From Candidatus Bipolaricaulota bacterium (GTDB taxonomy: Bacteria; Bipolaricaulota; Bipolaricaulia; RBG-16-55-9; DRXL01): 37,356 bases of DNA. Below, one piece after another: positions 7,433-33,363 of the stretch. The notes under the pieces were generated by a model. The model was not told where the DNA came from. It worked only from the letters and a program-made list of their open reading frames with translations, and searched no databases. Both the position numbers and the translations under genes were made by a program. The DNA is taken from positions 1 to 37,356 of the forward strand of contig JAUQPG010000012.1 in assembly GCA_030550495.1 (NCBI GenBank). The letters run 5' to 3'. Position 1 is the stretch's first letter; each line of letters begins with the position of its first letter.

Positions 7433-9193
7433 TTAGAACAGTCCCGTCACTTTGCCGGTCTTGACGTCAATATCAATTCGTCGGAACGCTGGATCAGATG
7501 AGGTCCCGGGCATCAAACTGATCGTCCCGGTCACGGGGCACAAGAACTTCGCCCCAGAATAGATGAGAATATCGCGGACGGGCAGGACCCACCCCTTGGG
7601 CACCCCCTTCAGCTCGGGATTATGACTGAGCGACAGATGCGTCTTGACCATCATCGTTTGGTAGTTGCTGTACTTAGGGTCGGATTCGATCTTCTTGGCT
7701 TTGGCTTCGGCTTCGGGGGTCCAGCTCACTCCGTCAGCCCCGTAGACGACTTTTGCGATCTTCTCGACCCGCTCACGCAGCTTCATCTCCAACGGATAGA
7801 GAAACTCAAACTGTGACGGCTCTTGAGCAGCGTCGATGATCGCGTCGACTAATTCTAACGCGCCCTCACCGCCTTTGAGCCAATGTTCTGAAACAGCACA
7901 GCGCGCCCCAGCAGCTTCGACGGCCTTCTTCACTGCAGCGATCTCGGCTTTCGTATCTGTAGGGAAGACGTTGATACAGACCACAGGCACGATCCCGGAA
8001 GTCTGAATGATCTTGAGATGATGCAGCAAGTTGGGCAAACCCTGCTCGACAAGCTTCACGTTCTCTTTTGTGTACTCTTGCGGGATAGGCCGACCGGGCA
8101 CGACCTTGGGGCCGCCGCCGTGCATCTTCAGCGCCCTGATCGTCGCAACGAGGACTGACACATGAGGCTTCAGCCCGCTGAGCCGACACTTCACATTCCA
8201 GAACTTTTCAAAGCCGATATCGGCCCCGAAGCCTGACTCCGTCACGTGATAGTCAAAGAGCTTCAGCCCGAGCAGATCGCCGATGATCGACGACTGCCCC
8301 ACGGCGATATTGGCAAACGGCCCGGCATGGACTAAGACGGGCTGATACTCGATCGTGCAGCAGAGCGTAGGATTGATAGTATTGCGCATCCACGCGGCCA
8401 TGGCCCCGTCGACTTCCAAGTCTTTTGTCGTAACGGGGTTGCCCTTCTTGTCAAACGCGACCGTGATCTGTCCGATGCGCTCGCGCAGATCCGCTAAATC
8501 TTTCGCGATCGCGAGAATAGCCATCAATTCCGAGCTGACGGCAATATCGAAGCGCGACTCCATCATATAGCCGTCCATGCGCCCGCCTAGCCCAATCACG
8601 ATGTGTCTTAAAGCTTGAGCGCAGAAGTCTATAACCCAGCCCATCTGGACGTTGGTCGGGTCTATGTCTAATCTGCGAAGCCCGATCTTCTTGAGCTGCT
8701 CGTCGTCATAATTGCGCTCGTGCTGGAGCCGAGCCGTGAGGGCGACCATCGCCAAGTTATGGGCGTTCGCAATATCGTTAATATCCCCAGTGAGCCCGAG
8801 GGAGAACTCGGTCATAGGGATCAGCAGGGCGTTGCCGCCGCCGGCGGCCGTCCCCTTAATGTTCATAGACGGGCCACCGGAGGGCTGACGAATACAGCCG
8901 CCGACGTTTGCGCCGCGCTTGCCCAGCCCTTCAATAATCCCCAGCGTCGTCGTGGTTTTGCCCTCACCAAGGGGGGTTGGTGTGATCGCCGTGACTTCGA
9001 TATATTTGCCATCACGCTTGTCTTTGAGCCTCTGCATGATCTTGGCGAAGTCGAGCTTGCACACCCGTCCGTAGGGTAGGACTTCGTCTTTCTTGAGCCC
9101 TAAGCGATCGCGCCACTCGTCAGGGGTGGGCATCTTCTCCTCGGCCAGTTCCGCGATCTGCCAGTCCTTCAGCTTTGTGGGATCGTATGCCAT
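7433..9193 (-). CDS. fhs: formate--tetrahydrofolate ligase
   Basis: ORF track start 9199; [14 protein letters not shown] at 9193 is a likely alternative start. Motifs [55 protein letters not shown]. Confidence 0.97.
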
Positions 9194-9206
9194 AAGCATC
9201 GCCTCC

Positions 9207-10145
9207 TTAGCTCTTCAGTCCCGACTTTTGTACGATCTCCGGCACAGCCTCTTCCCATTCAATAGCCATAATGTGCACGCCTGCAACCCCTTGGATCTCT
9301 TTAAGCTGCTGAATCAATTCTACACAGATCTTGATCCCTTCTTGTCTCCACGCTTCGGCTCTCGCTTGCTTGTCTTCGATCCCCTTGCCTGCGGCCTCCA
9401 TGCGCGAGACGATCTCATTGGGAACGTCTAGGCCCGGAACGTTGTCGCGCATATACTTAGCAGCTCCGGGCGTCTTGATCGGGCTGACTCCCGCTATGAT
9501 ATAGACTTTGTCGAGCAATCCCAAATCGCCCACCCGGGCGATGAACTCCCGAAATCTTTGGATATTATAAACGATCTGGGTCTGGATGAACTGGGCCCCG
9601 GCTTCGACTTTCTTCTTTAAGCGCAATGCGCGAAACTCATACGGTGGCGCAAACGGATTCTCCACAGCCCCGATAAACATAGCAGGGCGCTCGCCGGTCA
9701 GCTCATCCCCCGATAAGAAGCGCCCCTCGTCGCGCATCTTTTTCACTGTCTCGATCAAGTGTACCGAATCGAGATCGAAGACGCCCTTGGCTTGTGGGTG
9801 ATTCCCAAACGACTGATGGTCTCCCGTCAGGCAGAGCACATTGCGAATGCCGAGAGCATACGCGCCAAGAATATCGCTCTGCAGGGCAATTCTATTGCGA
9901 TCCCGACACGTGATCTGAAAGACCGGGTCGAGCCCAAAAGATTTCAAGATCGCGCACGCCGCGAGGCTGCTCATGCGCGTCACGGCTGTCTGGTTATCCG
10001 TGACGTTGGCAGCGTCGACCCAGTCTTTTAAGAGCTTTGCTTTCTCTTCGATGACTCTTCGGTCGGCGCTCTTGGGCGGGCCGCACTCGGCGGTCACCAC
10101 GAATTTTTTTGCTTCCAAAGCGCGCTGGAGATTGCTTTCGGGCAT
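9207..10145 (-). CDS. metF: methylenetetrahydrofolate reductase, MetF-type
   Basis: 312 aa; [61 protein letters not shown]. Confidence 0.92.
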
Positions 10146-17096: not shown

Positions 17097-19139
17097 TTAA
17101 GCAACCCGCTCGACCTGCGCAGCGCAGACTTTGAGCTCCGTGATCCCGCAGATGGGGTCTACGGCGTCGTTTGTTAAGATATTCGTTGGGCTTTCGGCGT
17201 AGTGAAAGGGCATCCAGATGACGCCCTCGGCGATCTCAGCGATCTGGGCTTTGACGACAAGCTCGCCGCGGCGCGTGCGCACTCGCACCCGATCTCCAGC
17301 TTTCACGCCGAGCTTCTGGGCGTCAGAAGCACTGAGCTGCACAAAGTTCTCCGGCTCAGCCCTCCCAGCTTTGGTGCGCCGGGTCATCGTCCCGCAATTG
17401 TATTGCATAAAAGTACGCCCGGTCGTCAGCAAGAACGGATATTCTGAATCGGGCAGCTCCGCTGGCGGGAAGTAGTCGATCCCGATGAGCTGCGCCCGCC
17501 CCCGCGTAAACTTGTCTCTGTGTAAAAATTTCGTGCCCGGATGGGTCTCATCGGGGCAGGGCCATTGGAGCCCATAATTCTCTTCTAAACGTCTGTAGCT
17601 GATCCCCGCGTAGATGGGGACTAAGCGTCGGATCTCCTCAAAGATCTCTTCAGGGCTTTGGTAGCTCATTCTATAGCCCAAGCGCTGAGCTAATTCGCAG
17701 AGAATCTGCCAATCGGGCTTGCTTGCGCCGATGGGCTCGATGGCTTTTCTGATGCGCTGCACGCGGCGCTCGGAGTTCACAAACGTCCCGTCTTTTTCGG
17801 CGAAGCTCGCCGCGGGGAGCACAACATGCGCGAATTGTATCGTTCGACTGGGGAAGGGATCCTGCACGATCACGAGCTCGGCGCTTTGCAGCGCTCTTTC
17901 GACTTTCTTCACATTGCCCTCAGTGAGTGCCGGGTCGGAGCCAATGATATAGAACGCTTTGAGCTCTCCCATGAGTGCTCGCTCCCACATGCGCGAGCAA
18001 AAGAGAAAAGAATCTGAAGAGGGCACGGGGAGCTTCACACCCCAGGCCCGCTCGAACTTCTCGATGACTGCTGGGTCCTTCCAACTCTGATAGCCCGGCA
18101 GCGTCTCGGGCCGACACATATCGGTCGCGCCCTGGACGTTGTTCTGCCCGCGCAGCGCGTTGATCCCGCTCGATTCTCTCCCGAAATTCCCCGTGATGAG
18201 CGCGAGATTACAAAGCGCCCGGACGTTATCCGTCCCCGTGCGATGCTCCGTCACCCCTAGCCCGTAAGCGATGCTCGCGGGCTTTTCGCGAGCATAGAGC
18301 TCAGCAGCTTGTTTGATCTGCGCGGCGGGCACGCCGCAGAGTTTTTCGACAGATTCGGGGGTATACTTCTGCACCACGCTCCAGAACTGCTCAAAGTTCT
18401 CGCAGCGCTCCTCGATGAAGCCCTTGTCGTGCAAATTATTGGCGATGATATGCTGGGCCATCGCGTTAAAGAGCGCGACTTCGGTGCCGGGCTTGCTCTT
18501 TAGGTGCACGGTGGCGAGCTTGGCTGGCTCCGTTGTGCGCGGGTCTATCACAATGAGCTTTGTGCCGTTCTTGACGGCGCGCTTCATCCAGACCGTCCAG
18601 ATGATGGGATGGGCATGGGGAGTATTGCTCCCAACGAGCATTAAGACTTTCGGCCCAGGCTCGGCAAATTCTGAAATAGAGTTCGTCATCGCGCCGCTGC
18701 CCAGCGACAGGGCTAAGCCCGCTACGGTCGCCGAGTGGCAGATGCGAAAACACTGATCTACGTTATTGGTGCCGAGCACGGCGCGCGCGAATTTTTGAGC
18801 TAAATAATTCTCTTCAACCGTAGCTCGTGCAGAGCTGATCACCCCGATAGCATCGGGGCCATAGCTCTGCTTGATGCGCTGCAGCTCACGGGTGATATAG
18901 TCATAGGCTTCGTCCCAGCTCACTTCCGTGAGCGTTCCGTTCTTGCGCAGCAGAGGCTTGTGCAGTCTGTCAGCGTGATGGACGAACTCGTAGGCTGTCG
19001 CGCCCTTGGGGCAGAGCGTGCCGCGATTGACCGGGTGATCTGGGTCGGGCCGCAGCCCGATGAGCTTATTCTCTTCTGTCTTGAGGATGACGCCACAACC
19101 GACGCCACAGTACGGACAGACGGATTTGACCTCGGGCAT
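17097..19139 (-). CDS. fdhA: formate dehydrogenase catalytic subunit (molybdopterin/tungstopterin, Cys-type)
   Basis: 680 aa; N-terminal CPYCGVGCGVILKTEENKLIGLRPDPDHPVNRGTLCPKG; CFRICHSATVAGLALSLGSGAMTNS (Cys at the Sec/Cys position); C-terminal molybdopterin dinucleotide-binding region. Confidence 0.9.
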   Translation of the reverse strand: MPEVKSVCPYCGVGCGVILKTEENKLIGLRPDPDHPVNRGTLCPKGATAYEFVHHADRLHKPLLRKNGTLTEVSWDEAYDYITRELQRIKQSYGPDAIGVISSARATVEENYLAQKFARAVLGTNNVDQCFRICHSATVAGLALSLGSGAMTNSISEFAEPGPKVLMLVGSNTPHAHPIIWTVWMKRAVKNGTKLIVIDPRTTEPAKLATVHLKSKPGTEVALFNAMAQHIIANNLHDKGFIEERCENFEQFWSVVQKYTPESVEKLCGVPAAQIKQAAELYAREKPASIAYGLGVTEHRTGTDNVRALCNLALITGNFGRESSGINALRGQNNVQGATDMCRPETLPGYQSWKDPAVIEKFERAWGVKLPVPSSDSFLFCSRMWERALMGELKAFYIIGSDPALTEGNVKKVERALQSAELVIVQDPFPSRTIQFAHVVLPAASFAEKDGTFVNSERRVQRIRKAIEPIGASKPDWQILCELAQRLGYRMSYQSPEEIFEEIRRLVPIYAGISYRRLEENYGLQWPCPDETHPGTKFLHRDKFTRGRAQLIGIDYFPPAELPDSEYPFLLTTGRTFMQYNCGTMTRRTKAGRAEPENFVQLSASDAQKLGVKAGDRVRVRTRRGELVVKAQIAEIAEGVIWMPFHYAESPTNILTNDAVDPICGITELKVCAAQVERVA

Positions 19140-20637: not shown

Positions 20638-21264
20638 TCACACAGTGTGAATCAATCGGTCGCAGATCATCGCACCGAGATGCGCCAGCATCTCCAGATG
20701 ATGATAATGCCCTGCGGACGCGTCGAATAAGACTTGCGCGCTCGCGGGAAACTCGTCGCCCCCAGACCAGTAGACGACCGCCACTGGAATTCTTGGGAGC
20801 GCCCAAAACCGAAACGAAGCATCTCCAAGATCGAGGGGTTCACCGCTGAGCTTCTGCGCTGCTTGTCGAAAGCCCTCTATATTGTTCTTAAAATGGCGCG
20901 CCAAGAGATTCCCTGAATAGCTCTGAAACGCGCGCTCATAAAAAGCCCCATTGGGCAGCTCCCTAAGAGAGACCCACTGATGAGCTAAGGGCGTGCCGTC
21001 GGCGAGAACTAAATACTGTAAGAGCGCCGCCTGCACAGGATTGGGGCACTTCTGCCCCTCTGGGTCGAGAACTTCGAGTTCCGGCCAGGTGATCGTGTAG
21101 GGGAGCCCGAAGAAGCGCAACTGAAACTGCCCTTGGCCCTCCTCAATCTCATAGTAGATAGCCCCAGAGTTATCACCAACGATGCGCGGGTCCCGCGAGC
21201 GCAGCTCTTCGCGCGCCTGCGCGATCTGGGGCTCTAAGCTCTTCTCCCACGCTGGGTTACGCAT
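20638..21264 (-). CDS. DUF3786-like protein
   Basis: 208 aa; start overlaps the cooS stop by 8 nt; RDPRIVGDNSGAIYYEIEEGQGQFQLRFFGLPYTITWPELEV...QAALLQYLVLADGTPLAHQWVSLRELPNGAFYERAFQ resembles the DUF3786 family by recollection. Confidence 0.65.
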   Translation of the reverse strand: MRNPAWEKSLEPQIAQAREELRSRDPRIVGDNSGAIYYEIEEGQGQFQLRFFGLPYTITWPELEVLDPEGQKCPNPVQAALLQYLVLADGTPLAHQWVSLRELPNGAFYERAFQSYSGNLLARHFKNNIEGFRQAAQKLSGEPLDLGDASFRFWALPRIPVAVVYWSGGDEFPASAQVLFDASAGHYHHLEMLAHLGAMICDRLIHTV

Positions 21265-23164
21265 ACACGGGCGTATACATCGGCTCTTTGAGCTTCAGCT
21301 CGGCGCGCTTCTTGTCCAGATGCGCTAGGATCGCTTGCGCTGCTTTATGGGGATCCGGCTCAAAGAGGAACTTCCCGCCCACGAGTCTTTCTAAATCTTC
21401 CGTCAGGAGCTTGTGCATCCTGGGGCTGCCCAGCGTGGGGAAGGGCGTGTTGAAGTGCACCAGCACCCCCGACGCCACAAAATAGAACCCGATAGCAACG
21501 GCTTTCTCGCTCATCCATTCGGGAGCAGACCCCGCGACGGGCAGCTTCGAAAAATCTTCGCCCAGGCCGCCCTCGCTCACGATCTCCGCAAGTGTTATCA
21601 AGATTCGAGAGTTATCGACGCACGCGCCCACGTGCAGCACTGGCGGGATGCCCACGGCCTCGCAGATCTCTCTCAGCCCCGGCCCGGCATACTCGAACGC
21701 CGCTTCGGGCTTCAAGAACCCATACTTGGCATCGGCAATCGCCGAGCATCCCGAAGTGACGATGAGCACATCGTTCTTTAAGAGTTCTTTCGTCAGCTCG
21801 ATGTGCCCCCAGTCGTGCGGGGTGTTGGGGTTGTTGCAGCCGACAATCCCAACAGCACCGCGCAGCCGCCCGTCAATGATCGCGTCGTTGAGGGGTCTAT
21901 ACGTAGCGCGATAGCGCCCGCCCAAGAATCGAAAGACAGACTCGGACGTGAAGCCTGCGATCAGGTCCATAGATTCGTTGGGGATCTGCACCCGACGAGG
22001 ATCTCGGTTGGGGAAGTTCTCAATCGCTCGACGGATGATCTCCTTGGCGATTTGCAAGGCGTGCTCCTCTCGAAATTCGATGAACTCAGTATTGGGGAAC
22101 TTCGCTTTAGGAGAGGTCGCGATCAGCTTCGTATGGAAGCACTGGGCGAGGCTGCTGAGCGCGGGCATGATGCACTGCACGTCCACGATCATCGCGTCTA
22201 CGGCTCCTGTGGCTAACGCTAATTCTTGCTGCAAGAAGTTCCCAGCGATGGGGATGCCGTGGCGCATCAAAATCTCGTTTGCCGTGCAGCAGATGCCCGC
22301 GAGATTGATCCCTTTGGCACCCTTCTGGCGCGCAAGCTGCTGCAGTTCGGGGTCGCGGCTCGCGGCGACGAGCATCTCTGATAAGATGGGCTCGTGGCCG
22401 TGCACGACTACGTTCACTTCGTCTTTCTTGAGCACTCCTAAATTGACGCGGGCGCGCAAGGGTGTCGGCGTGCCGAAGAGAATGTCTTGTAACTCTGTCG
22501 AGATCATCGAGCCGCCCCAGCCGTCAGCCAGAGACGTCCGCAGCCCGTGCAGAATGATATTATAATAATCAGTGTCTACCCCCATCGTCGTGCGGTGCAT
22601 CATCTCCACGACTTCGCGGTCTATCCCACGGGGCATGATGCCCAGTTTTCTCCAAAGCTCTTGGCGGGCCTTGGGCGCACGATGCGTGAACGTCAGTTCG
22701 CCCTCTTGCTGGCCGAACTCCGCTAATATCTTTTCGGCTAACGACTTGGCGATCTCGGCGTCGCTTTTGGTGTCCGGGCCGATCCCAAACTCGGCGGCGA
22801 CTTTTCTGAGCTTAACGGGGTCTTTAATACGATAGCCGCCCTTGCCCTCAGCGGCCATTAAGAGAGTATGGGCGACGTCACGTCCATGGTCGGAGTGAGC
22901 AGCCGCTCCCCCTGCGATCATCCGTCCCAGATGGCGAGCCGTGAACGTATCGGCGTCGGCGCCGCAGACGCCGCGCTGCGGCCCTCTGCCAAACGGATCA
23001 ATCCGACACGGCCCCATATTGCAGATTCTGCAGCACAAGCCTAACTGTCCGAAGCCGCACTGAGGCTGCTGTGCCTCCCAGCGGTCCCACGCCGTCTCCA
23101 GACGCTCTTGTTTTGTGCGCTGGAGCATCTCTTGCGTTGCTCGGTCTACGCTGCGCTCTTTCAT
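21257..23164 (-). CDS. cooS: anaerobic carbon monoxide dehydrogenase catalytic subunit
   Basis: Likely start MKERSVDRATQEMLQRTKQERLET at 23164; CGFGQLGLCCRICNMGPCRIDPFGRGPQRGVCGADADT, NLAGICCTANEILMRHG, GIVGCNNPNT, SGCSAIADAKYG, HVGACVDNSRIL. Confidence 0.97.
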   Translation of the reverse strand: MKERSVDRATQEMLQRTKQERLETAWDRWEAQQPQCGFGQLGLCCRICNMGPCRIDPFGRGPQRGVCGADADTFTARHLGRMIAGGAAAHSDHGRDVAHTLLMAAEGKGGYRIKDPVKLRKVAAEFGIGPDTKSDAEIAKSLAEKILAEFGQQEGELTFTHRAPKARQELWRKLGIMPRGIDREVVEMMHRTTMGVDTDYYNIILHGLRTSLADGWGGSMISTELQDILFGTPTPLRARVNLGVLKKDEVNVVVHGHEPILSEMLVAASRDPELQQLARQKGAKGINLAGICCTANEILMRHGIPIAGNFLQQELALATGAVDAMIVDVQCIMPALSSLAQCFHTKLIATSPKAKFPNTEFIEFREEHALQIAKEIIRRAIENFPNRDPRRVQIPNESMDLIAGFTSESVFRFLGGRYRATYRPLNDAIIDGRLRGAVGIVGCNNPNTPHDWGHIELTKELLKNDVLIVTSGCSAIADAKYGFLKPEAAFEYAGPGLREICEAVGIPPVLHVGACVDNSRILITLAEIVSEGGLGEDFSKLPVAGSAPEWMSEKAVAIGFYFVASGVLVHFNTPFPTLGSPRMHKLLTEDLERLVGGKFLFEPDPHKAAQAILAHLDKKRAELKLKEPMYTPVYA

Positions 23165-23197
23165 AGCTCCTCCTTCAAATTCTATGGTTCTTTGTCG

Positions 23198-23227
23198 TTG
23201 GAGTGATCCTTTCGTTAAGGGTATAAT
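23198..23227 (+). promoter_or_regulatory. Candidate promoter for the toxin-antitoxin pair (-10 TATAAT, weak -35 TTGGAG)
   Basis: TATAAT at 23222-23227, 18-nt spacer from TTGGAG 23198-23203, 19 nt before the ATG at 23247. Confidence 0.4.
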
Positions 23228-23246
23228 CAATTGGGTGAGTTTCGAT

Positions 23247-23480
23247 ATGACCCAGAGAGTCGAAGCCATTTACGAAGACGGCGTGCTCAAGCCGCTGCAG
23301 CCGGTGCAGTTGCCGGAGCACCAACGGGTGCTTTTGGCAATCCGCCCCCTTCCCCAGCTCAGCCCTGACGAGATTCTCGAGCTGGCACAACAAGTCTATG
23401 CAGGGCTTTCGGAAGAAGAGATTGCCGAGATTGAAGCCATTGCTCTGGATCGCAGCAATTTCATGAAGCCCGCGGAGTGA
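23247..23480 (+). CDS. DUF104/AF2212-like antitoxin
   Basis: 77 aa from ATG 23247: MTQRVEAIYEDGVLKPLQPVQLPEHQRVLLAIRP, the characteristic antitoxin N-terminal motif; directly followed by a PIN-domain gene. The ORF track start at 23115 is too far upstream. Confidence 0.85.
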   Translation: MTQRVEAIYEDGVLKPLQPVQLPEHQRVLLAIRPLPQLSPDEILELAQQVYAGLSEEEIAEIEAIALDRSNFMKPAE

Positions 23481-23483
23481 GTG

Positions 23484-23903
23484 ATGACGACAATCGCTCC
23501 GGCCCTTCTCGACACCGATACGCTCTCGGAGATCATGCGGGGCCAACATGCTGGCTTGGTGCAAAAATCTCGACAGTATTTGCACGTGCACCATTACTTT
23601 AGCTTCTCGATCATCACGCGCTATGAGATCCTGCGAGGCTTGAAAGCCAAACAGGCAACAGCAAGATTGACAGCTTTCGAGCAATTTTGCCAGGTGAACC
23701 GAGTTTTGCCTCTGACAGATCCGATCATCGTGCGTGCCGCCGAGATCTACGCCGATTTGAAGCGCCAAGGGCAGCTGATCAGTGATGCGGATATTTTGAT
23801 TGCCGCGACAGCTATGACTCACAGATTGGTGCTGGTCACCAACAACGTAGCCCATTTTCAGCGCATCGCGGGTTTGCAAACCCTTAGCTGGAAAAGCCCC
23901 TAG
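23484..23903 (+). CDS. vapC: PIN-domain (VapC-like) toxin
   Basis: LLDTDTLSEIMRG (first Asp), ITRYEILRGLKAKQA (Glu), ISDADILIAATAMTHRLVLVTNNVAHFQRIAGL (Asp, TNN.xHF). Confidence 0.9.
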   Translation: MTTIAPALLDTDTLSEIMRGQHAGLVQKSRQYLHVHHYFSFSIITRYEILRGLKAKQATARLTAFEQFCQVNRVLPLTDPIIVRAAEIYADLKRQGQLISDADILIAATAMTHRLVLVTNNVAHFQRIAGLQTLSWKSP

Positions 23904-23919
23904 CCTCATTGTCCACATC

Positions 23920-24723
23920 TCAGCTCCTCTTTCGATATGCCTTCAAGTAGTCGTCGCTGTAGATCTCTTTATTGAGAATCAGCTCAGCTGTTGCCACGGC
24001 GTTCATCAGTTCTGTGTCGCAGACGTTGCAGATCGCTGTGTCGCACCCTGCGGCCATCGCCATGACTAAGAACGTCCGATTGATGAGCGAGCGCTCTTTA
24101 GCTTTGGAGCAGATATTGCTCAGCCCAATTGAGATGTGCGGCGGCGGGTCGGAGATCATCGCGAACTGTCTGATCGCTTCCAGGACGTTCTTCGCTTGCT
24201 CTTGCATGAACTTCAAGGGCATCACGATGGGATCGAGATAGATTCTGTCAGGGGTCAACCCAGCTTCACTGGCGACGGCGAAGATCTTTGCGCCAAGCTC
24301 GACTCTTCTATCTACATCTTGGGGGCTGCCGCGCTCGTCCATCACCACACCTATCAGCCCGGCGTTGTACTGCACTGCGAGCTCAACCAAGGGGACAAGC
24401 TTGCTGTCTTCGGCTGTGGTGCTGTTGATGATCACGGGCCGCCCGCCCCCGAATTCTTTGTACGCTTCCAAGCCCGCCTTCATGAGATCGAGCTTATTGT
24501 AGTCAACGGAGATTGGGGTTGGGACGGCCTCACAGACAGTTTGTATTAACCAACGAAAGTCGTCGGCGCTCTTGGAGACCGCGCCTAAATTCACGTCCAG
24601 ATAGTCTGCCCCGGCTTCGGTCTGCCTTCTCGCCCACTCTTGGATCGGGGCTTTATTACGTTCCCTGATCGCCGCGGCGATGTCTTTGAAAGAACCGTTG
24701 ATGCGCTCCCCTATCAGAATCAT
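23920..24723 (-). CDS. acsE: 5-methyltetrahydrofolate:corrinoid/iron-sulfur protein methyltransferase
   Basis: 267 aa; MILIGERINGSFKDIAAAIRERN, GADYLDVNLGA, ISVDYNKLDLMKAGLE, IINSTTAED, HISIGLSNICSKAKERSLINRTFL. Confidence 0.95.
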   Translation of the reverse strand: MILIGERINGSFKDIAAAIRERNKAPIQEWARRQTEAGADYLDVNLGAVSKSADDFRWLIQTVCEAVPTPISVDYNKLDLMKAGLEAYKEFGGGRPVIINSTTAEDSKLVPLVELAVQYNAGLIGVVMDERGSPQDVDRRVELGAKIFAVASEAGLTPDRIYLDPIVMPLKFMQEQAKNVLEAIRQFAMISDPPPHISIGLSNICSKAKERSLINRTFLVMAMAAGCDTAICNVCDTELMNAVATAELILNKEIYSDDYLKAYRKRS

Positions 24724-25700
24724 GTGAGACCATCTCCCATTAACTGTTTAATCGCTTGGCGTACACTGGCGACGGCCTGGGGATGGCGCAGGACCAAAAT
24801 ATCTGCGCCCGCTAAGAGATAGACATAAGCCGTTGTCGCCTCCCATAAGGGGCCACGCTCCCTTTGCGCGCCCCATTCAGGTAATTCTTGCTCGCTCGCT
24901 TTGGCTTCTTTCACACCCCAGACTTCGATGCCGATATCGCAGATCATGGGCTGCGAGAGCATCTTATCCCCACGAAGTGCAGCGAGCCGTGCGCGTTCCA
25001 TCACTGAGTAGACATACTCCAGCCCATAGCCCAGGGCGGCACTTGTGGGGTAGATCACGATATCCTCGGGCTTGAAGCCCATATCGGTAGCGAGAATATT
25101 CACTTGCTTGGCGATATTCACGTCGCACGGCGACTCAGCGATCACTTTGTGCTTGTACGCTGTGCAGAGCGCGACTAAAGTTTTATAGTTATCTTCGGTG
25201 ATCGTGCCTAGCAGACAGTTCTCGCCCGAGGCAGCTTCAGCAACAGCAGGAAAGATCTCGTTGTCTTTGTCGTCGTTGCCCGTGCCCCAAATAATTAATG
25301 GCACGCCGACAGACTCCAAGACGTGCTTGACGGCTTGCGCCGCTTCTTGGGGGCCGCGATTCTGCCGCACGGGATCGCAGCCAGCAAGCCTCAGACAGAT
25401 GAGATCTGCGCCATACTGCTCGACGCACTTTTTGGCCCACAGCCCCGGATCGTGCCAGACGTCGCGAAAGTGCTCGGCGAGCACCTCGGGCCAGTCTTGA
25501 GGAGCGACATCCCACACTTCCATAGCTATTGCCGGGGGATAGGGCATCTTGCCCTCAAAGTGATGGAACGGCAGCGCTGTTGCGCCGCCCACAGTGACTT
25601 TCTTCGTGCGGGTGCCGCCCTCGTCCTTGGTTGCGCCCAACGTCACGGTGTTGATCGCGTTTGTCCAAGTCTTCTTGACATCAGGAATAGCGAGGGGCAT
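24720..25700 (-). CDS. acsD: corrinoid/iron-sulfur protein small subunit
   Basis: 326 aa; GGATALPFHHFEGKMPYPPAIAMEVWD, PQDWPEVLAEHF, DLICLRLAGCDP, YPTSAALGYGLEYVYSVMERARLAAL; ATGA overlap with acsE. Confidence 0.95.
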   Translation of the reverse strand: MPLAIPDVKKTWTNAINTVTLGATKDEGGTRTKKVTVGGATALPFHHFEGKMPYPPAIAMEVWDVAPQDWPEVLAEHFRDVWHDPGLWAKKCVEQYGADLICLRLAGCDPVRQNRGPQEAAQAVKHVLESVGVPLIIWGTGNDDKDNEIFPAVAEAASGENCLLGTITEDNYKTLVALCTAYKHKVIAESPCDVNIAKQVNILATDMGFKPEDIVIYPTSAALGYGLEYVYSVMERARLAALRGDKMLSQPMICDIGIEVWGVKEAKASEQELPEWGAQRERGPLWEATTAYVYLLAGADILVLRHPQAVASVRQAIKQLMGDGLT

Positions 25701-25701
25701 C

Positions 25702-26487
25702 TTACGATCCTCCTCCGTTCCGCAAAATCTTCTCTAGGATCTCATGCACGGCAAGCTTGGCTGGAGAAGTCGAGGGCAGCTCGCTGAGGGGTTTGCCCTC
25801 TAAGCTCAAACTCCAGAGCGTCTCGTCTGTCGGTATCTCGCCGATGAGCGCAAGCCCTGCCTGGGCAAGCTTCTCCCGAAAAGATTCTGTCCCCAGCCGA
25901 GCTCGCATGCTCTCGCTCACGTTGTTGAGAGCCAAAAATCTCTTGCGGATGCACAGCTGCAGCTCATCAGCCAATCTGTTAATGCGAGCCGCAGCTTGCA
26001 ACGCGATGGGGTTGGCATCGCTGATGACTAATAAGACATCCACGTCTTGGGTTGTGCGTCGTGACAAGTGCTCCAATCCCGCTTCGTTGTCCAAGACAAC
26101 GTATTTATAGTTCTTGCTCAGCAGATCTATATAGCGTCTCAAGACGTGATTGACAGCGCAGTAGCAGAACGGGCCTTCGCCCCGGCCCATCGCCAACAGA
26201 TCAATGCCGTTGCTTTCGACAAGACACTGCTGGAGCCCGTACTCTAAATACTGATCTTTCGTGACCCCCGGCGGGAGGTCTTTAATTTTCTTTAGGGTCT
26301 CCTCGCGCAGGTCGCCAATAGTCCGCTCGACGTGCAGCCCTAAGACTTGATGGAAATTCGTATTGGGGTCGGCGTCAATCGCCAGCACCGGCCCGTCGCG
26401 ACGCTCAACGAGCGCGCGCACGATCAGCCCTGCTACCGTTGTCTTTCCGACGCCGCCCTTGCCGGCAACCGCTATCGTGAATGCCAT
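25702..26487 (-). CDS. cooC: CooC/AcsF-type nickel-insertion ATPase
   Basis: 261 aa; deviant Walker A AGKGGVGKTTVAGL, AIDADPNTNF, GPFCYCAVNHVLR (CXC), VLDNEAGLEHLSRRTTQDVD. Confidence 0.92.
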   Translation of the reverse strand: MAFTIAVAGKGGVGKTTVAGLIVRALVERRDGPVLAIDADPNTNFHQVLGLHVERTIGDLREETLKKIKDLPPGVTKDQYLEYGLQQCLVESNGIDLLAMGRGEGPFCYCAVNHVLRRYIDLLSKNYKYVVLDNEAGLEHLSRRTTQDVDVLLVISDANPIALQAAARINRLADELQLCIRKRFLALNNVSESMRARLGTESFREKLAQAGLALIGEIPTDETLWSLSLEGKPLSELPSTSPAKLAVHEILEKILRNGGGS

Positions 26488-28403
26488 AGTGCTTCCTTCA
26501 CCCGCAAGCGCTCCTGCACCGATGGGAAGCGCTCTAACTCTGTGTGGGGCAAGAACTTCGCCGCGAGAAATTCCTCGTAGTAGTGCGGGAAGCTGATGAG
26601 ATCATAATACGTCGCGCTTTGGGCGATCTCTTCACACTTCTCCCAGGCCTCCCGCGACAATAGTGCCATCTTCGCCCCGATGATAGACGTGTTCCCCACA
26701 AAGCGAATCTTCTCTAACGGCAGATCGGGGATCAGCCCAATCATAATCGCTTTCTCGCGGTCGAGATAGTTCCCAAAGCCTCCAGCGAGAAAGACTCTCT
26801 CTATGTCAGCGACGTCAAGGTTGAGCGATTTCATCAAGATCAATGCTCCGGCGTAGATCGCCGCTTTAGCTCGCAAGAGATTCTCGATATCCGCTTGGGT
26901 GATCACGATATCTTTCTCTGTGGCAGAGCGCTGCGCTGGGACGACGACGAACTCTAACATCCCGTCGCGCTCGCGGATGCGCGGGCTCGCTTCGGGGATG
27001 AGCCTCCCAGAGCGATCTATAAACCCAGCTTCTAAAAGCCCCGCGACTAAGTCTATCAATCCAGAGCCGCAGATCCCCTTGGGCTTGACGTTGCCTACTG
27101 TCTTATAGAGCACATTTCCGTCGGGAGAGATTTGAACTCTCTCAATGGCGCCACGGCTCGCTTTCATGCCGCACTTGACGCCAGAGCCCTCAAACGCCGG
27201 CCCTGCCGAGGCCGAGCACGTCACCATCCAACTGAAGCCGTCCTCGCGGCGCCCGATGACGATCTCCCCGTTGGTGCCCACGTCTATTAACATTACGGTC
27301 TTGTCAGACTCATAGAGTCCGGTCGCTAAAATGCCCGCGGTGACGTCACCGCCGACCCAGCCGCCGATCGCCGGGACGCAATAGAGCAGCCCCCTGGGAT
27401 TGATCTGAATCCCGACCTCGGCAGCACGCACCGGCGGGGGCGCCGTCGAGCACGACACATACGGATCGCGCCGGATCGAGCTCGGATCAAGCCCAAGCAA
27501 TAAGTGCATCATCGTGGTGTTGCCCGCGCAGACGACCGCCGAGCAGTCGTGCAACGCAATGTTATTGCGCGAGACCAGCGCTGTGATTAAATTGTTGATA
27601 TCGTTAACGATGGTCTTCTGGAGCTGTTCCAATCCGCCGCGCTCGGCGTAGATGATCCTTCGGGTGACTTCTTCGCCGTAGGCCCGCTGGGAGTTGTACA
27701 TGGCTTCGGCGTCTACGGTGCGCCCGGTGTTCAAGTCTACAAGATGGGCAACGACGGTTGAGGTGCCGACGTCTACGGCGATCCCGTAATTACGAGAAGA
27801 AGTATCGCCGCCTTCAAGCTGTAAGATCTCGACGGTGCCGCCGCGCAGCCCCAACGTCGCTGTCACCTTCCAATGGTTTTGACGCAAGAGCTTGGGCTGC
27901 GCTCGCAAGATCTTCAATCCCATCTGCATGATCGGATAGTCTCTATGCCGCCGGATCTCCCGATAGAGCCGTTGTTGGTCAGCTACGTTATCGTGCAGGG
28001 AGGGCGGGGGCAGCTCCAGATAGAGCTTCTGCACGAGGGGTTCGTGTCTGAAGGAGACCCTCTCTTCTTGGTAGAGGGCGCGGAAGCGCTGTGCGTCTAT
28101 GTCTATTAAGATCTGGCCTTCTTCGGCGCGGGTCTCAGGAGGGACTTCGACTTCGACGTCGCCCAAGACTTTGGTTTGACAGGCGAGCACATAGCCTCTC
28201 TGGATCTCATCGCGATTTAAGAGAGTCGTCGGCGCGGCTTCGATATTGCCGTTCTTGACGATGACGCGACAGCGCCCGCAGATGCCGTCGCCACCGCAGA
28301 TGCTCGCGAGTTCGACGCCAGCGGCCTTCGCCGCGGCTTGGATGGTGACGCCGCGCTCGACCTCGACGCTCACCTCATCGGGATGAAATCTCACTCTGGG
28401 CAT
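26472..28403 (-). CDS. RACo-like reductive activator of the corrinoid/iron-sulfur protein (2Fe-2S + ASKHA/DUF4445)
   Basis: 643 aa; N-terminal CGGDGICGRCRVIVKNG...CQTKV [2Fe-2S]; YGIAVDVGTSTVVAHLVDLNTG; VMLIDVGTNGEIVIG; FLAGGFGNYLDREKAIMIGLIPDLP. Confidence 0.93.
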   Translation of the reverse strand: MPRVRFHPDEVSVEVERGVTIQAAAKAAGVELASICGGDGICGRCRVIVKNGNIEAAPTTLLNRDEIQRGYVLACQTKVLGDVEVEVPPETRAEEGQILIDIDAQRFRALYQEERVSFRHEPLVQKLYLELPPPSLHDNVADQQRLYREIRRHRDYPIMQMGLKILRAQPKLLRQNHWKVTATLGLRGGTVEILQLEGGDTSSRNYGIAVDVGTSTVVAHLVDLNTGRTVDAEAMYNSQRAYGEEVTRRIIYAERGGLEQLQKTIVNDINNLITALVSRNNIALHDCSAVVCAGNTTMMHLLLGLDPSSIRRDPYVSCSTAPPPVRAAEVGIQINPRGLLYCVPAIGGWVGGDVTAGILATGLYESDKTVMLIDVGTNGEIVIGRREDGFSWMVTCSASAGPAFEGSGVKCGMKASRGAIERVQISPDGNVLYKTVGNVKPKGICGSGLIDLVAGLLEAGFIDRSGRLIPEASPRIRERDGMLEFVVVPAQRSATEKDIVITQADIENLLRAKAAIYAGALILMKSLNLDVADIERVFLAGGFGNYLDREKAIMIGLIPDLPLEKIRFVGNTSIIGAKMALLSREAWEKCEEIAQSATYYDLISFPHYYEEFLAAKFLPHTELERFPSVQERLRVKEALWHSR

Positions 28404-28406
28404 CGC

Positions 28407-29750
28407 TCACGCTTTCCATTCGTTCTTTAAGTACGCGGGGATCCCCGCAGCTTCCTCTGGGCCAACTAAGACCTCCCAGCCCCCTAGGTCTTCAATCTCG
28501 CCTTTGAGCACCGCCACTAAGCCTGGAATGACTAACTTCTTGTGCGCCACCAGGTCCATCACCCCATAGCTCTTCACAGCTTTGACAATGGCTTCCGCGG
28601 TGAGCTTGTCATCGGCGTAAGCATTGAGCACGCCCAGACCGCCTGTGTCCACGACGGCAATGTACGCTGGCACCCGGCTGTTTTCCACTTCGCCCTCAAC
28701 AGTGAAGTACGTGAGCGCGAAGTTCGTGGTGACGAGCACGGGTGACTGCGGGGTCGGCTCGCCAACTTTATAGAGCTTGGCTTCGACGGCGTTGGGCACC
28801 TGCGGATCAGTGAAGATATTCTGTCTCACTGTGAGAATGGGCAGGAGCTGCCAGCGCTCCGCCCCGTCCAGGATGATAAGGCCTGCGTACTTGCACACAA
28901 ACGTCACAGCATATGCTGTCTCTAAGAACGGGTCGCTCTCTGGTATGGAGACCATCACGGGATAGCCCACGGCTCGGAAATTCTTCTCCAGCGCGAGCCG
29001 GCGCAGCTGCGTCAATTTTGCTAAGCCGTCGGCAAGCCCTGAAATTTCGGGCTGGAGCACGAGGTCTTCAACGCCGAGCGATTTGATCTGTTGTGTCAGA
29101 TCGGCAAGCCCTTCGAGCGTCGCTGCGCGCACCGCGAGCGGGCACTTGAATTCTTTGGCTAGCGCCGCGAGTTCTGTAAAATTCTCTTTAGTCGCGGCGC
29201 ACAGCAGTGGCCGGCGCTCGGCGCAGACCTCAAGAGCTGCCTTGAGCGCCTGCGGTTCCGTGCTAGACAAGACAAGCGCCAACGGCGACTTTTCCGCAGC
29301 AACCTTGACGACTTGCGCAAATCTATTGACATCGCTAGTCGTCTGCTCGACAGCAATAGCGTTGACCCCGATGAGCTGCCCTACCCGCACAAACTGCAAT
29401 TGATTGATCTTCTCGACGCGCTGAGTCAGCTCACCCTCAGGGAGATCGTCTCGGACACGGATAGCGATCACCGTGGGGTGATGGAACTTCTCTTCGTGTC
29501 TGAACAAGACGGTCTCACCGCCGAGCTTGAGAGCCCGGTCTCCTGCACCGATAGTGACAGTCCGCATCGGCGGGGCCTGAGCTTCAGAGAGCGCCGCCTT
29601 CGCTTCAGCTGAGACGTGGGGGCATTGCTCCAGCCCGACTTTCTTGGCCGCGACTTGCATGGCAAACGCCATGCACGTTGGGAAATTACAATCCCCACAG
29701 TTAGTCTTGGGCAGATGCTTATAAATCTCTATGCCTGTCAGTTTCGCCAT
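28407..29750 (-). CDS. acsC: corrinoid/iron-sulfur protein large subunit
   Basis: Likely start MAKLTGIEIYKHLPKTNCGDCNFPTCMAFAMQVAAKKVGLEQCPH at 29750 (447 aa); the four-Cys N-terminal cluster motif is typical. Confidence 0.95.
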   Translation of the reverse strand: MAKLTGIEIYKHLPKTNCGDCNFPTCMAFAMQVAAKKVGLEQCPHVSAEAKAALSEAQAPPMRTVTIGAGDRALKLGGETVLFRHEEKFHHPTVIAIRVRDDLPEGELTQRVEKINQLQFVRVGQLIGVNAIAVEQTTSDVNRFAQVVKVAAEKSPLALVLSSTEPQALKAALEVCAERRPLLCAATKENFTELAALAKEFKCPLAVRAATLEGLADLTQQIKSLGVEDLVLQPEISGLADGLAKLTQLRRLALEKNFRAVGYPVMVSIPESDPFLETAYAVTFVCKYAGLIILDGAERWQLLPILTVRQNIFTDPQVPNAVEAKLYKVGEPTPQSPVLVTTNFALTYFTVEGEVENSRVPAYIAVVDTGGLGVLNAYADDKLTAEAIVKAVKSYGVMDLVAHKKLVIPGLVAVLKGEIEDLGGWEVLVGPEEAAGIPAYLKNEWKA

Positions 29751-29763
29751 AGCGATCAGCTCC

Positions 29764-32700
29764 CTACTGAACGATGGGTTCCATCTCGAGCGCCGGATGA
29801 CCCACACGCTGCAAGAACTCGAGCAGCTCTTCGCTGGTCGTGGCATCTTTTTCGGTAGCAATCTTGTCGAAGAGCTCCGGCATCCCGATCTCTTCTAGGC
29901 GCTTCTGCAGCCTCTCTTTGATCTCTTCTTTGAGCTCACTAGGCATCCAGACGAGTCTCTTGATGCCGCCCTCAGCGCTGATAAATTTTTCGCTGGTGAG
30001 ATAGAGCTTGCCTACGCCCAAGAATCCCGGCGTCTGCACGCCGCCGCCGACCTCGCCGGCCATGGTCGAGAACGTCATGCCGATAGGAGTCATGCCGTTA
30101 AACTCACGATTGACGACCATAACCCCGTTGCACTCGGGAAGCACCGCGACGATGCACTCGAAGCACCCGCAGTTCTTAATTAAGAGGCTATTAGCAAAGT
30201 AGCAATGGATATCCGCAAGGGTTATATTGTAGACGAGCTCATAGCGCCTTCTCCCCTTGTTGTCCACCGTCTCAACGGCAGTCACGGTATCTAAGAAGTA
30301 GTCCGTCTCCAGCGCGGCCCGCAGCTGCTCAGCCTCCGGGGCAGCTTCTAAGACCTTCTGCACGTTGGCTGACACGGGCCGCGAGCGACCTGACTGGTAA
30401 TAGTACAGTGTGCTGGGGCTAAGGACCATACGGCTGGCGGGCAGCTGGGCTAGGGCTTGGCCCACCCAGTGCGGCAATACTTCCTCTTGGGTCTTGTCGA
30501 GCTTGCCGTTACTAGGCATCTGACGGATGGCCGACAACACGGCTTGCTTCTCCGGATGCTTGGCCGGGATGACTTCTGCGAACCTGCGTAGGTTCGCCCC
30601 ATGCATGACGATCTTCCATACCGATCCCGATCTTTGGAGATTGCCGACAATGCCCAACCGCCGCAGCAGAAGCTGTAGATGGCGTGCGGCTCGCTCATCC
30701 GCAATGCACATATACCCTTCGGCAATGTCCCACCTTCCTGCATAGCGACGCAAGCGGACACTGCCGTCGCCGTCAAAGACCCCAGCCAAGAAGGCCGCGA
30801 TGTGTGCCTCCGGCAGACTCACCAACCGTCCCAGCTCCCAGCGTCCTTGGCTGCCGACACGGATTCCTAGGCGCTCCGCCAGCAAGCCCAAGACGGAATT
30901 GTTGCCAGAGAGGTGGAAGCAGGGTTTGGTCGGTGTGATCGTGCGTCCGCGCAACGTCGTTGGCTTGCCCGATTTGATCCGCCTCGTCAGACGATACCCT
31001 GGGAAGAGCCGCTGATAGATCTCTGTGAATTGCTCAATCAGCTCCTCATCGGTGTTAACAAAGCTGATAATGCGCTCATAGCGTCCCCGAGGGGTGATGC
31101 AGCCGTCGCTCGCGATCAAGCCCAACACATAGAAGCAATCCGGGGTGAGAGACCCCGGCAGAGGCTTGCGCGATCGGAAGTCTTTGGGCAGAAGATCGGT
31201 GATAGCAGGGAGATGTCCCGGCAGGCGCAGGTGCCGGAGCGCAATTAGGCGCTCGCCCGGCTGGATCTGATCCGCTCGGACCCATTGCAGGCCGTCCGGC
31301 CGATCAACGGCCAGCTCATGGTCCTTGGTCAAGATCAGCTGAGCCCCAGACTTCGTCTCTAGGCAAATCAGCTCGTCGGGGGCCTCGAAGCGCTGCAAGG
31401 CCACCACAGGCTCAGCATGGGCTTTGCCCTCACGCAGCGTCAGAACTTGAGCATCTCGATAGCGCTCGCCGCCTCGGTGCCTCTCGATGAACTCTCCAAT
31501 GGGCATGGGAACGCCGTCAATGATCAATTCCGTATCACCAACCACGCAGCTTGTCTGCGGGTCTTGCATAATAGAGTACATCGAGACTCTCTCTAAATTC
31601 CCGTTGGAGGCGACACGCACGTACTCGTTGACCCCTTGCCATTCGCCCAAGACGGGATCGAGGCAGAGGCCCTTGGGCACGGGTTTATTCGGGCCGTGCG
31701 GGTCCATCTCGTACGACGCCCCACAGTCGAGCCATGTATACGCCCCGCACAAACCTAATCTTTGTGGCGTCACGATGCAGACGTGATTGGGTGCATAGCT
31801 CTGACAGAGAATACAACTATAGAACGTGTCCACGTCTTCGTCCTTCATGCCCATGACGCGCTCGTCGCGAGCACGATAGATCTCACGTGCTTCTTTGAGG
31901 AGCGCTTCGACCTGGGCTTGATCGGTGACAATCTTCACTTGCACTTTGTCAACTAATGCCCCAAAGTCTTCTTTGAATTTTGCGACCAGGACCTCGCCGT
32001 AGTGCTTCAAGCGAAAGCCCTTCTCATACGCTTCTTTGGAGATGCGCACCCAGGGGATGTCGCGCTGCCCAATGTGCATTACGCCGTTAATGCAGCTGAT
32101 GAAGTGATGGATTCTTCTCTCCAAGACGGGCTCAAAGTCCGTCTTGAGATTGCGCCCGGCCACGTCGACAATCACCCCCAAGGGCATGGCTTCGCCTTCT
32201 CTGGCTTGATCTATATCCGGGCCGATCAGCTCGATCTTGCCATCTTCGACCTCGTCCATGGGTCGGGCACGCAACAGCTCGAACGCTGTGCTGTACTTTC
32301 CGCCGAACTCGACATAGAGATTCTCTTTACGCACGCGCTCGCCCTCAAAGCCCGCCCCGTAGGGTACGGGGATGGGGATCTTCGAGACCTTGATCTTGAG
32401 CCCTCGGACCTCAATGGCCTTGGAGACGATCTTATCCAAAGAGACCCCGGAGACGACGTGCTCATACGTACAGATGCCCCTGGGCAGAATCTGGGGGATG
32501 GGCACGTCAGCGATCACGGGAAATCCAAAGTTGATCGCGCCCGCGGCGGTCGCGTACTTCTCGTCGGTGAGGAGCTGCCCTGTGCTGTCGACGTTAGGGT
32601 CAGCGCCAAGCGCCAGCACAAACGCGAAGACGCGCTCCTTGTTATACAGCAAGATCTTGCGCGCAGCGTCGAAGCTGCCGGGCTTGATCCCGCCAAACGT

Positions 32701-33363
32701 CATCGCGGCGCGAGCCGCGAAATTGAGAGCAAAGACGGCTGCACTCACGGGCTTGCCGTAGGGGACTAAGAACGTGTCCCAGCTCATATCAATGCCTTCA
32801 TCGGCTAATTGCTCAGCCATGGAGCGCCCGTTGGAATCCCCAGCGATAAAGACTAAGATATTTCTCTCTTGCAGGGCGCGGGCTAGCTCGACGGCGTCTT
32901 TATTCGTCGGCAGCGCCCCAACACAGGCAGCGAACCCCGGCATCCGGCCGTCTACGAGCTTGATCCCTTGGGTTCTCAAGATCGTGTCGTCGGTGAAACC
33001 GAGCCAGGGCGGCTCCGGTTTATAACTTGGGTCTAAGTATCTCAAAGCTTCGATGATCTCTTCAGCGATCAGCGTCGCGATCCCCGCGTCGAGGGCATCG
33101 CCCAGATACGGGAGCCATAGTCGCTCTTCAGGAATGGGGGGCAGAAGCTCTTTCGCATACCGGAGCGCCTCCTGACAGTCCTGGAGCGTCTCCACCTTGA
33201 GGCCCGTCAGCGCTAAGATCAACGGCAAGTAATACGCCGTATTGGGGAAGCCGATCTTCTTCTCTGGCTTATACGCTGCTATCGCTTCAGCGAGCTTCTG
33301 CTCGGCTTCAGCAACGTACTTGTGAGCGCCACGGATCGCGGCAGACGCGATAATCTTAGACAT
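29764..33363 (-). CDS. acsB: acetyl-CoA synthase (CODH/ACS beta subunit) interrupted by an intein
   Basis: 1199 aa precursor; about 740 aa after intein removal. A-cluster Fe4S4 ligands SCILCQSYAPNHVCIVTPQRLGLCG; the distal-Ni CGC motif is reconstituted as PQTS|CGCFECIVAVLP. Confidence 0.96.
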   Translation of the reverse strand: MSKIIASAAIRGAHKYVAEAEQKLAEAIAAYKPEKKIGFPNTAYYLPLILALTGLKVETLQDCQEALRYAKELLPPIPEERLWLPYLGDALDAGIATLIAEEIIEALRYLDPSYKPEPPWLGFTDDTILRTQGIKLVDGRMPGFAACVGALPTNKDAVELARALQERNILVFIAGDSNGRSMAEQLADEGIDMSWDTFLVPYGKPVSAAVFALNFAARAAMTFGGIKPGSFDAARKILLYNKERVFAFVLALGADPNVDSTGQLLTDEKYATAAGAINFGFPVIADVPIPQILPRGICTYEHVVSGVSLDKIVSKAIEVRGLKIKVSKIPIPVPYGAGFEGERVRKENLYVEFGGKYSTAFELLRARPMDEVEDGKIELIGPDIDQAREGEAMPLGVIVDVAGRNLKTDFEPVLERRIHHFISCINGVMHIGQRDIPWVRISKEAYEKGFRLKHYGEVLVAKFKEDFGALVDKVQVKIVTDQAQVEALLKEAREIYRARDERVMGMKDEDVDTFYSCILCQSYAPNHVCIVTPQRLGLCGAYTWLDCGASYEMDPHGPNKPVPKGLCLDPVLGEWQGVNEYVRVASNGNLERVSMYSIMQDPQTSCVVGDTELIIDGVPMPIGEFIERHRGGERYRDAQVLTLREGKAHAEPVVALQRFEAPDELICLETKSGAQLILTKDHELAVDRPDGLQWVRADQIQPGERLIALRHLRLPGHLPAITDLLPKDFRSRKPLPGSLTPDCFYVLGLIASDGCITPRGRYERIISFVNTDEELIEQFTEIYQRLFPGYRLTRRIKSGKPTTLRGRTITPTKPCFHLSGNNSVLGLLAERLGIRVGSQGRWELGRLVSLPEAHIAAFLAGVFDGDGSVRLRRYAGRWDIAEGYMCIADERAARHLQLLLRRLGIVGNLQRSGSVWKIVMHGANLRRFAEVIPAKHPEKQAVLSAIRQMPSNGKLDKTQEEVLPHWVGQALAQLPASRMVLSPSTLYYYQSGRSRPVSANVQKVLEAAPEAEQLRAALETDYFLDTVTAVETVDNKGRRRYELVYNITLADIHCYFANSLLIKNCGCFECIVAVLPECNGVMVVNREFNGMTPIGMTFSTMAGEVGGGVQTPGFLGVGKLYLTSEKFISAEGGIKRLVWMPSELKEEIKERLQKRLEEIGMPELFDKIATEKDATTSEELLEFLQRVGHPALEMEPIVQ
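30172..31548 (-). mobile_element. Intein (459 aa) with LAGLIDADG homing endonuclease, inside AcsB
   Basis: Block A CVVGDTELIIDG (C1 codon 31546-31548); block B LILTKDHELAV; LAGLIDADG motifs LGLIASDG (31102-31125) and FLAGVFDGDG (30763-30792); C-terminal VYNITLADIHCYFANSLLIKN|C (N codon 30172-30174). Removal restores a contiguous AcsB. Confidence 0.95.

Follow-up and report, generated by a model that had tools for sequence, protein, structure and literature searches.

In the redox trap of the MoaA intein, the N-extein cysteine is reportedly at position -3. In P. abyssi, a disulfide that joins an N-extein cysteine to the first intein residue, Cys1, blocks splicing of this intein (Callahan et al. 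2011, as described in the review PMC10663303). Closer to the C-terminal splice junction, an Asp at position F:4 and a penultimate His are the usual assisting residues of inteins, not defining ones (PMC4031507), and splicing without a penultimate His has been described (Chen et al. 2000, as cited in PMC4031507).

The window is the whole stretch of DNA that we analysed, 37,356 nucleotides from a Bipolaricaulota (Acetothermia) genome (G000, the source genome; a 1.63-Mb MAG, 92% complete). A single open frame on its minus strand encodes a 1199-aa AcsB, which is 740 aa long without its insert, and this acetyl-CoA synthase (ACS) locus is the only copy that we found in the genome. We read the insert as a mobile, class-1-type, cis-splicing LAGLIDADG intein that sits before Cys595 (Moorella numbering) of the only ACS found in the genome, and we put the probability of this reading at about 0.92. 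The gene is divided as follows (a slash marks a splice junction throughout the text):

29764-33363, minus strand: acsB, bifunctional CODH/ACS acetyl-CoA synthase precursor (NF040764, 1031 bits; PDB ACS chains, E about 1e-205)
31549-33363, minus strand: N-extein, 605 codons, ending in DPQTS
30172-31548, minus strand: intein, here named AcsB-b, 459 aa, CVVGDTELI...SLLIKN
29764-30171, minus strand: C-extein, 135 codons plus stop

The domains CODH_A_N, CdhC and ACS_CODH_B_C (Pfam) flank the insert on both sides, and the NCBIfam CODH/ACS alpha/beta model scores 1031 bits on AcsB in two pieces. Within the insert, Pfam finds LAGLIDADG_3 in two stretches (E 5e-20) and Intein_splicing with an E-value of 1.3e-8 and 35.3 bits, against a cut-off of 35.8 bits. 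The NCBIfam model intein_Nterm passes its cut-off (32.8 vs 24.5 bits), and the opening Cys of the insert is precisely where its match begins. When the intein is excised in silico, what is left is an ordinary 740-aa ACS, like those of close relatives in which the site is empty. The sequence-only reading had called the insert a LAGLIDADG intein, and the Pfam and NCBIfam matches, the motifs and the empty site in relatives bear it out; its coordinates and residue claims (30172-31548, minus strand, 459 codons, CVVGDTELI...LLIKN) were exact. That the sequence comes from a MAG is the sole point in favour of a chimeric assembly or the insertion of an unrelated domain. Six independent assemblies share the insertion, and base composition is nearly equal across the gene in the window (GC3 of 70 in the intein and 72 in the extein), so we regard this explanation as extremely improbable.

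The position of the insert can be stated in terms of the A-cluster. As is established from ACS crystallography, the distal Ni is held by C595 and C597, which also link it to the proximal Ni, while C509 connects the proximal Ni to the [4Fe-4S] cluster, whose other ligands are C506, C518 and C528. The alignment of AcsB to Moorella ACS (PDB 1oao_C) breaks at DPQTS/C and resumes at NCGCFE, pairing window C1065 with residue 595 and window C520 with residue 509. It agrees with the earlier proposal that the CGC motif begins with the +1 Cys and that this residue is C595 in Moorella numbering:

30163-30171, minus strand: CGC codons of the A-cluster, the first of which encodes the +1 Cys, Moorella C595 (by alignment)

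The intein is therefore inserted in frame directly before the codon of the A-cluster Ni ligand Cys595. Close relatives have an uninterrupted NPQTSCGCFEC or DPQTSCGCFEC at this site. The CGC tripeptide belongs entirely to the C-extein and is uninterrupted in the precursor; it is plausible, on steric grounds, that the unspliced precursor is unable to form the A-cluster.

The residues that would carry out splicing are located as follows:

31546-31548, minus strand: Cys1 codon, first splicing nucleophile, block A (invariant in intein alignments)
31318-31329, minus strand: block B, TKDH (T74 and H77, both invariant)
30172-30234, minus strand: blocks F and G, VYNITLADIHCYFANSLLIKN, with the F:4 Asn, the block F His, the penultimate Lys and the terminal Asn

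The intein thus has the class 1 features Cys1, T74xxH77, a C-terminal N459 and a +1 Cys, and Cys1, the splice residues and both LAGLIDADG motifs are invariant across the AcsB inteins compared. In block F, the His (H448) is present and F:4 is Asn. The penultimate residue is not His: it is Lys in every AcsB-b intein and Arg or Lys in AcsB-a, a second AcsB intein described below. The sequence-only reading had noted neither this residue nor the F:4 Asn. We do not take Lys458 or the F:4 Asn as excluding splicing, because PMC4031507 counts the usual residues at these positions as assisting. With both present, however, the predicted splicing may be slow or altered. The retention of Lys or Arg at the penultimate position of both AcsB sites also provides a handle on how Asn cyclisation proceeds without His.

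The intein also has the features of a homing endonuclease, i.e., two LAGLIDADG motifs with their acidic residues and a matching fold:

31102-31128, minus strand: LAGLIDADG motif 1, VLGLIASDG, acidic D148 retained
30763-30789, minus strand: LAGLIDADG motif 2, LAGVFDGDG, acidic D261 retained

The intein profile matches solved inteins, e.g., Pho RadA (E 1.7e-9). A single-sequence structure prediction was discarded (pLDDT 40) and an alignment-based AlphaFold model was used instead; it was built from five sequences and is of moderate confidence, with a mean pLDDT of 67 and the splicing domain weakest. Its best fold matches are the full-length TliVMA intein (E 1.7e-14) and PI-PfuI, with PI-SceI also matched, and its endonuclease part matches I-Tsp061I and I-DmoI at a target-normalised TM of about 0.7.

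AcsB inteins are present in 8 of 257 ACS-bearing genomes (2/39 in Bipolaricaulota and 6/9 in Aerophobota), a tally over these two phyla and those of G104, G105, G106 and G107 that includes some ACS fragments where the site is invisible. The sequence-only reading had suggested looking for the same insertion in other AcsB proteins, and a homologous intein was found in five other genomes. In Bipolaricaulota, the carriers are the source genome and G014 (RSWS19; same order, different family), and congeners with a readable site have it empty. In Aerophobota, the C595 codon is the insertion point in G100 (L059), G101 (L060), G117 (L197) and G118 (L198); the G118 contig begins within the intein and shows the C-terminal junction alone. 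Because the homologous insert occupies the same codon in all five, chance is excluded. Two further Aerophobota genomes, G102 (L129) and G121 (L196), carry the divergent intein AcsB-a before the C509 homologue, with junctions FYSCIL/CVPEKEN...VVRN/CQSYAPNH (one copy at L129:4567-6168, plus strand). The L129 copy is 27% identical to the window intein.

Elsewhere, contiguous ACS matches and frame lengths gave no AcsB intein in the phyla of G104 (116 ACS genomes), G107 (58), G106 (30) and G105 (5). Some other phyla have ACS frames about 1170 aa long, which were rejected as intein carriers because their ACS match is contiguous, which indicates a terminal fusion or extension. In G168-G171 and in several genomes of the phylum of G106, most ACS frames are of about this length and thus carry some 450 aa of additional terminal sequence. 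A seeming ACS insertion in G435 proved to be a stretch of masked bases. Patterns drawn from the window intein found no relative in viral contigs, and in non-AcsB genes of 60 relatives and 17 Aerophobota there was no close match (about 35% identity or less, or weak). The A05DMB20 acsB (L118; G010:C11, about 249129-251318), sister of the occupied G014 gene, has an empty site; it is broken over several frames with a TGA and is either a pseudogene or the product of sequencing errors. The site is also empty in Aerophobota G114 (L188), which has a short, archaeal-looking, CdhC-type ACS of 414 aa.

The Wood-Ljungdahl pathway is defined by its ACS, and much of a Wood-Ljungdahl cluster lies in the window (7433-9199, 9207-10145, 17097-19139 and 21257-29861). 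Its content is FTHFS, MTHFR, a molybdopterin oxidoreductase, CODH, AcsD, AcsC and an AcsV-like activase, the last with a match below its curated cut-off. The genes placed individually are:

28407-29750, minus strand: acsC, CODH/ACS gamma subunit, directly downstream of acsB, start ATG at 29750 (PRK04165, E 1e-177)
24720-25700, minus strand: acsD, CODH/ACS delta subunit, same cluster
21257-23269, minus strand: CO dehydrogenase catalytic subunit, same cluster

Substitution patterns bear on whether the intein is functional. By the Nei-Gojobori method, intein dN/dS is about 0.10 between the window and G014 and about 0.2 among Aerophobota site-b inteins (extein synonymous sites are near saturation). 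The window intein is under purifying selection. An intein with no penultimate His, whose splicing is predicted from a MAG sequence, might instead have decayed, i.e., lost splicing, with the 1199-aa protein tolerated or ACS dead in this organism. We consider this very unlikely given the low dN/dS, an open frame and splice residues conserved over two phyla, the Wood-Ljungdahl cluster around acsB and the lack of a second ACS among the genes found in the genome.

The same comparisons carry information about mobility. The state of site b (C595) changes at least four times on the AcsB extein tree, and that of site a (C509) at least twice. Amino acid identity between the window and G014 is 86% in the extein and 78% in the intein, and between the window and L059 it is 73% and 58%, respectively (57-58% across the Aerophobota inteins measured). 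In Aerophobota, fourfold-site differences are smaller in the intein than in the extein for L059/L197 (0.27 vs 0.62, p 6e-6), L060/L197 (0.43 vs 0.70, p 9e-4) and L059/L060 (0.39 vs 0.54, p 0.002). The patchy spread, together with this lower synonymous divergence of the intein than of its host gene, points indirectly to homing, and an intein transfer that postdates the host split would fit the Aerophobota data. For window/G014 the gap is narrow (0.50 in the intein vs 0.58 in the extein, p 0.09); the intein may have reached the lineage of the source genome by recent transfer, or it may be an old inheritance that relatives have repeatedly lost.

A functional, mobile intein would be expected to work as follows, on the basis of general intein biochemistry. 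After translation, Cys1 would attack the Ser605-Cys1 bond, and the N-extein would then move onto the +1 Cys, which is later to bind Ni. Asn459 would cyclise next to Lys458, where inteins normally have His, and ligation of the exteins would give the 740-aa ACS. Splicing probably precedes Ni loading, because the +1 thiol needs to be free. At the DNA level, the endonuclease probably targets the strongly conserved sequence around the CGC codons, and the element is probably copied into empty acsB alleles. Such a site would be favoured because it is unable to mutate away and because imprecise loss would kill the enzyme. The AcsB intein can be explained without any benefit to the host.

The source genome and its relatives contain other inteins. 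A KorB-like 2-oxoacid:ferredoxin oxidoreductase beta subunit (G000:C2:5882-6907; L055:965-3067, minus strand) has a 376-aa intein inside a CxxC Fe-S motif (WCPG/C...HN/CGDFG), and similar frames of 700-701 aa occur elsewhere in the order (L151, L165). A radical-SAM protein, AmrS-like by eye (G000:C2, about 91000; L056:2-2305, minus strand), has a 446-aa intein with a penultimate Lys before the third Cys of CxxxCxxC (HCPY/C...KN/CQNWE). Both have a Cys at -3, and their +1 Cys lies in a known Fe-S ligand motif. SufB (G000:C6; L054:2319-5255, minus strand) has two inteins, at EG/CTAPIYS and NIG/SRLTMKYPS, as it does in several other genomes of the order. Bipolaricaulota and Aerophobota relatives have many further inteins, e.g., L200, L208 (RtcB), L206 (V/A-ATPase A), L164 (Mrp/NUBPL), L015 (dCTP deaminase) and L159 (proteasomal ATPase), whose hosts include Fe-S carrier, P-loop and RNA-ligase proteins. 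A preference of the lineage's inteins for metal sites only was considered and rejected, as the wider order also has inteins in GyrA-type topoisomerase and dCTP deaminase (Pfam) and in DnaB, UvrB and ribonucleotide reductase (junctions judged by eye). We therefore claim no general metal-site preference.

One proposal of the sequence-only reading fared less well, namely that splicing at the window site is a redox- or metal-responsive checkpoint: its junction (DPQTS/C) has no counterpart to the -3 Cys of the MoaA trap. The N-extein ends in SIMQDPQTS, with no Cys nearby, and in the C-extein positions +1, +3 and +6 are Cys. The C509-site intein does have the MoaA-type N-extein Cys at -3 (SCIL/C, with the N-extein ending in FYSCIL). 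In its general form, the proposal is that AcsB splices only in a reduced cell or with permissive metals, releasing the O2-sensitive ACS once it can be assembled. The appeal of this is that a metal ligand doubles as the +1 nucleophile, that redox-trapped splicing in an O2-labile enzyme has a precedent in the MoaA intein (PMC10663303), that the C509-site intein has a MoaA-like Cys-3/Cys1 pair and that Lys or Arg persists at the penultimate position of both sites. We nonetheless think it unlikely, since the window site has no Cys at -3, most close relatives have the same enzyme intein-free, the extra block F Cys is not conserved (Ala in L060) and the distribution is parasite-like. It is doubtful that the inteins at A-cluster cysteines make maturation of the ACS Ni site conditional on redox or metal state; if they did, splicing would gate ACS assembly because the future Ni ligand first acts as a free splicing thiol. 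Such a gate would be tightest at C509, where the MoaA-like Cys pair is present, and by the same reasoning might extend to the KorB-like and radical-SAM inteins. Redox gating, if real, is better sought at these three sites, because Cys-3 is present there. ACS offers a test of conditional splicing in which the known redox-trap geometry is present at one site and missing at the other.

The earlier reader knew of no described AcsB intein, and we likewise found no report of an ACS intein in the open-access literature (InBase and annotated protein databases were outside the scope of this search). PMC6390638 and PMC2718504 were considered as earlier reports and set aside because the inteins or mentions in them are not in ACS. 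The best reading is that an element of a known kind has a new host in AcsB, at two new sites. Both sites directly precede Ni-bridging cysteines of the A-cluster and are occupied by divergent inteins, across two phyla, which makes AcsB a clean case of homing elements settling on unchangeable residues.

Compared with known systems, the AcsB intein shares its architecture, a Hint splicing domain plus a LAGLIDADG endonuclease, with TliVMA, PI-PfuI and PI-SceI, but it is only 15-20% identical to them, is in a different host and, unlike them, has Lys where block G usually has His (PMC4031507). It shares with the P. abyssi MoaA intein an oxygen-sensitive metalloprotein as host, and a splice site with Cys1 and a thiol-based chemistry. 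The MoaA trap, however, pairs an N-extein Cys with Cys1, whereas the window site has no adjacent N-extein Cys and it is the AcsB C509-site intein that has Cys-3. SufB inteins (e.g., in Mycobacterium tuberculosis, PMC8891592) resemble it in that their host protein belongs to Fe-S metabolism; in AcsB, by contrast, the host is a carbon-fixation enzyme and the +1 Cys is a direct Ni ligand.
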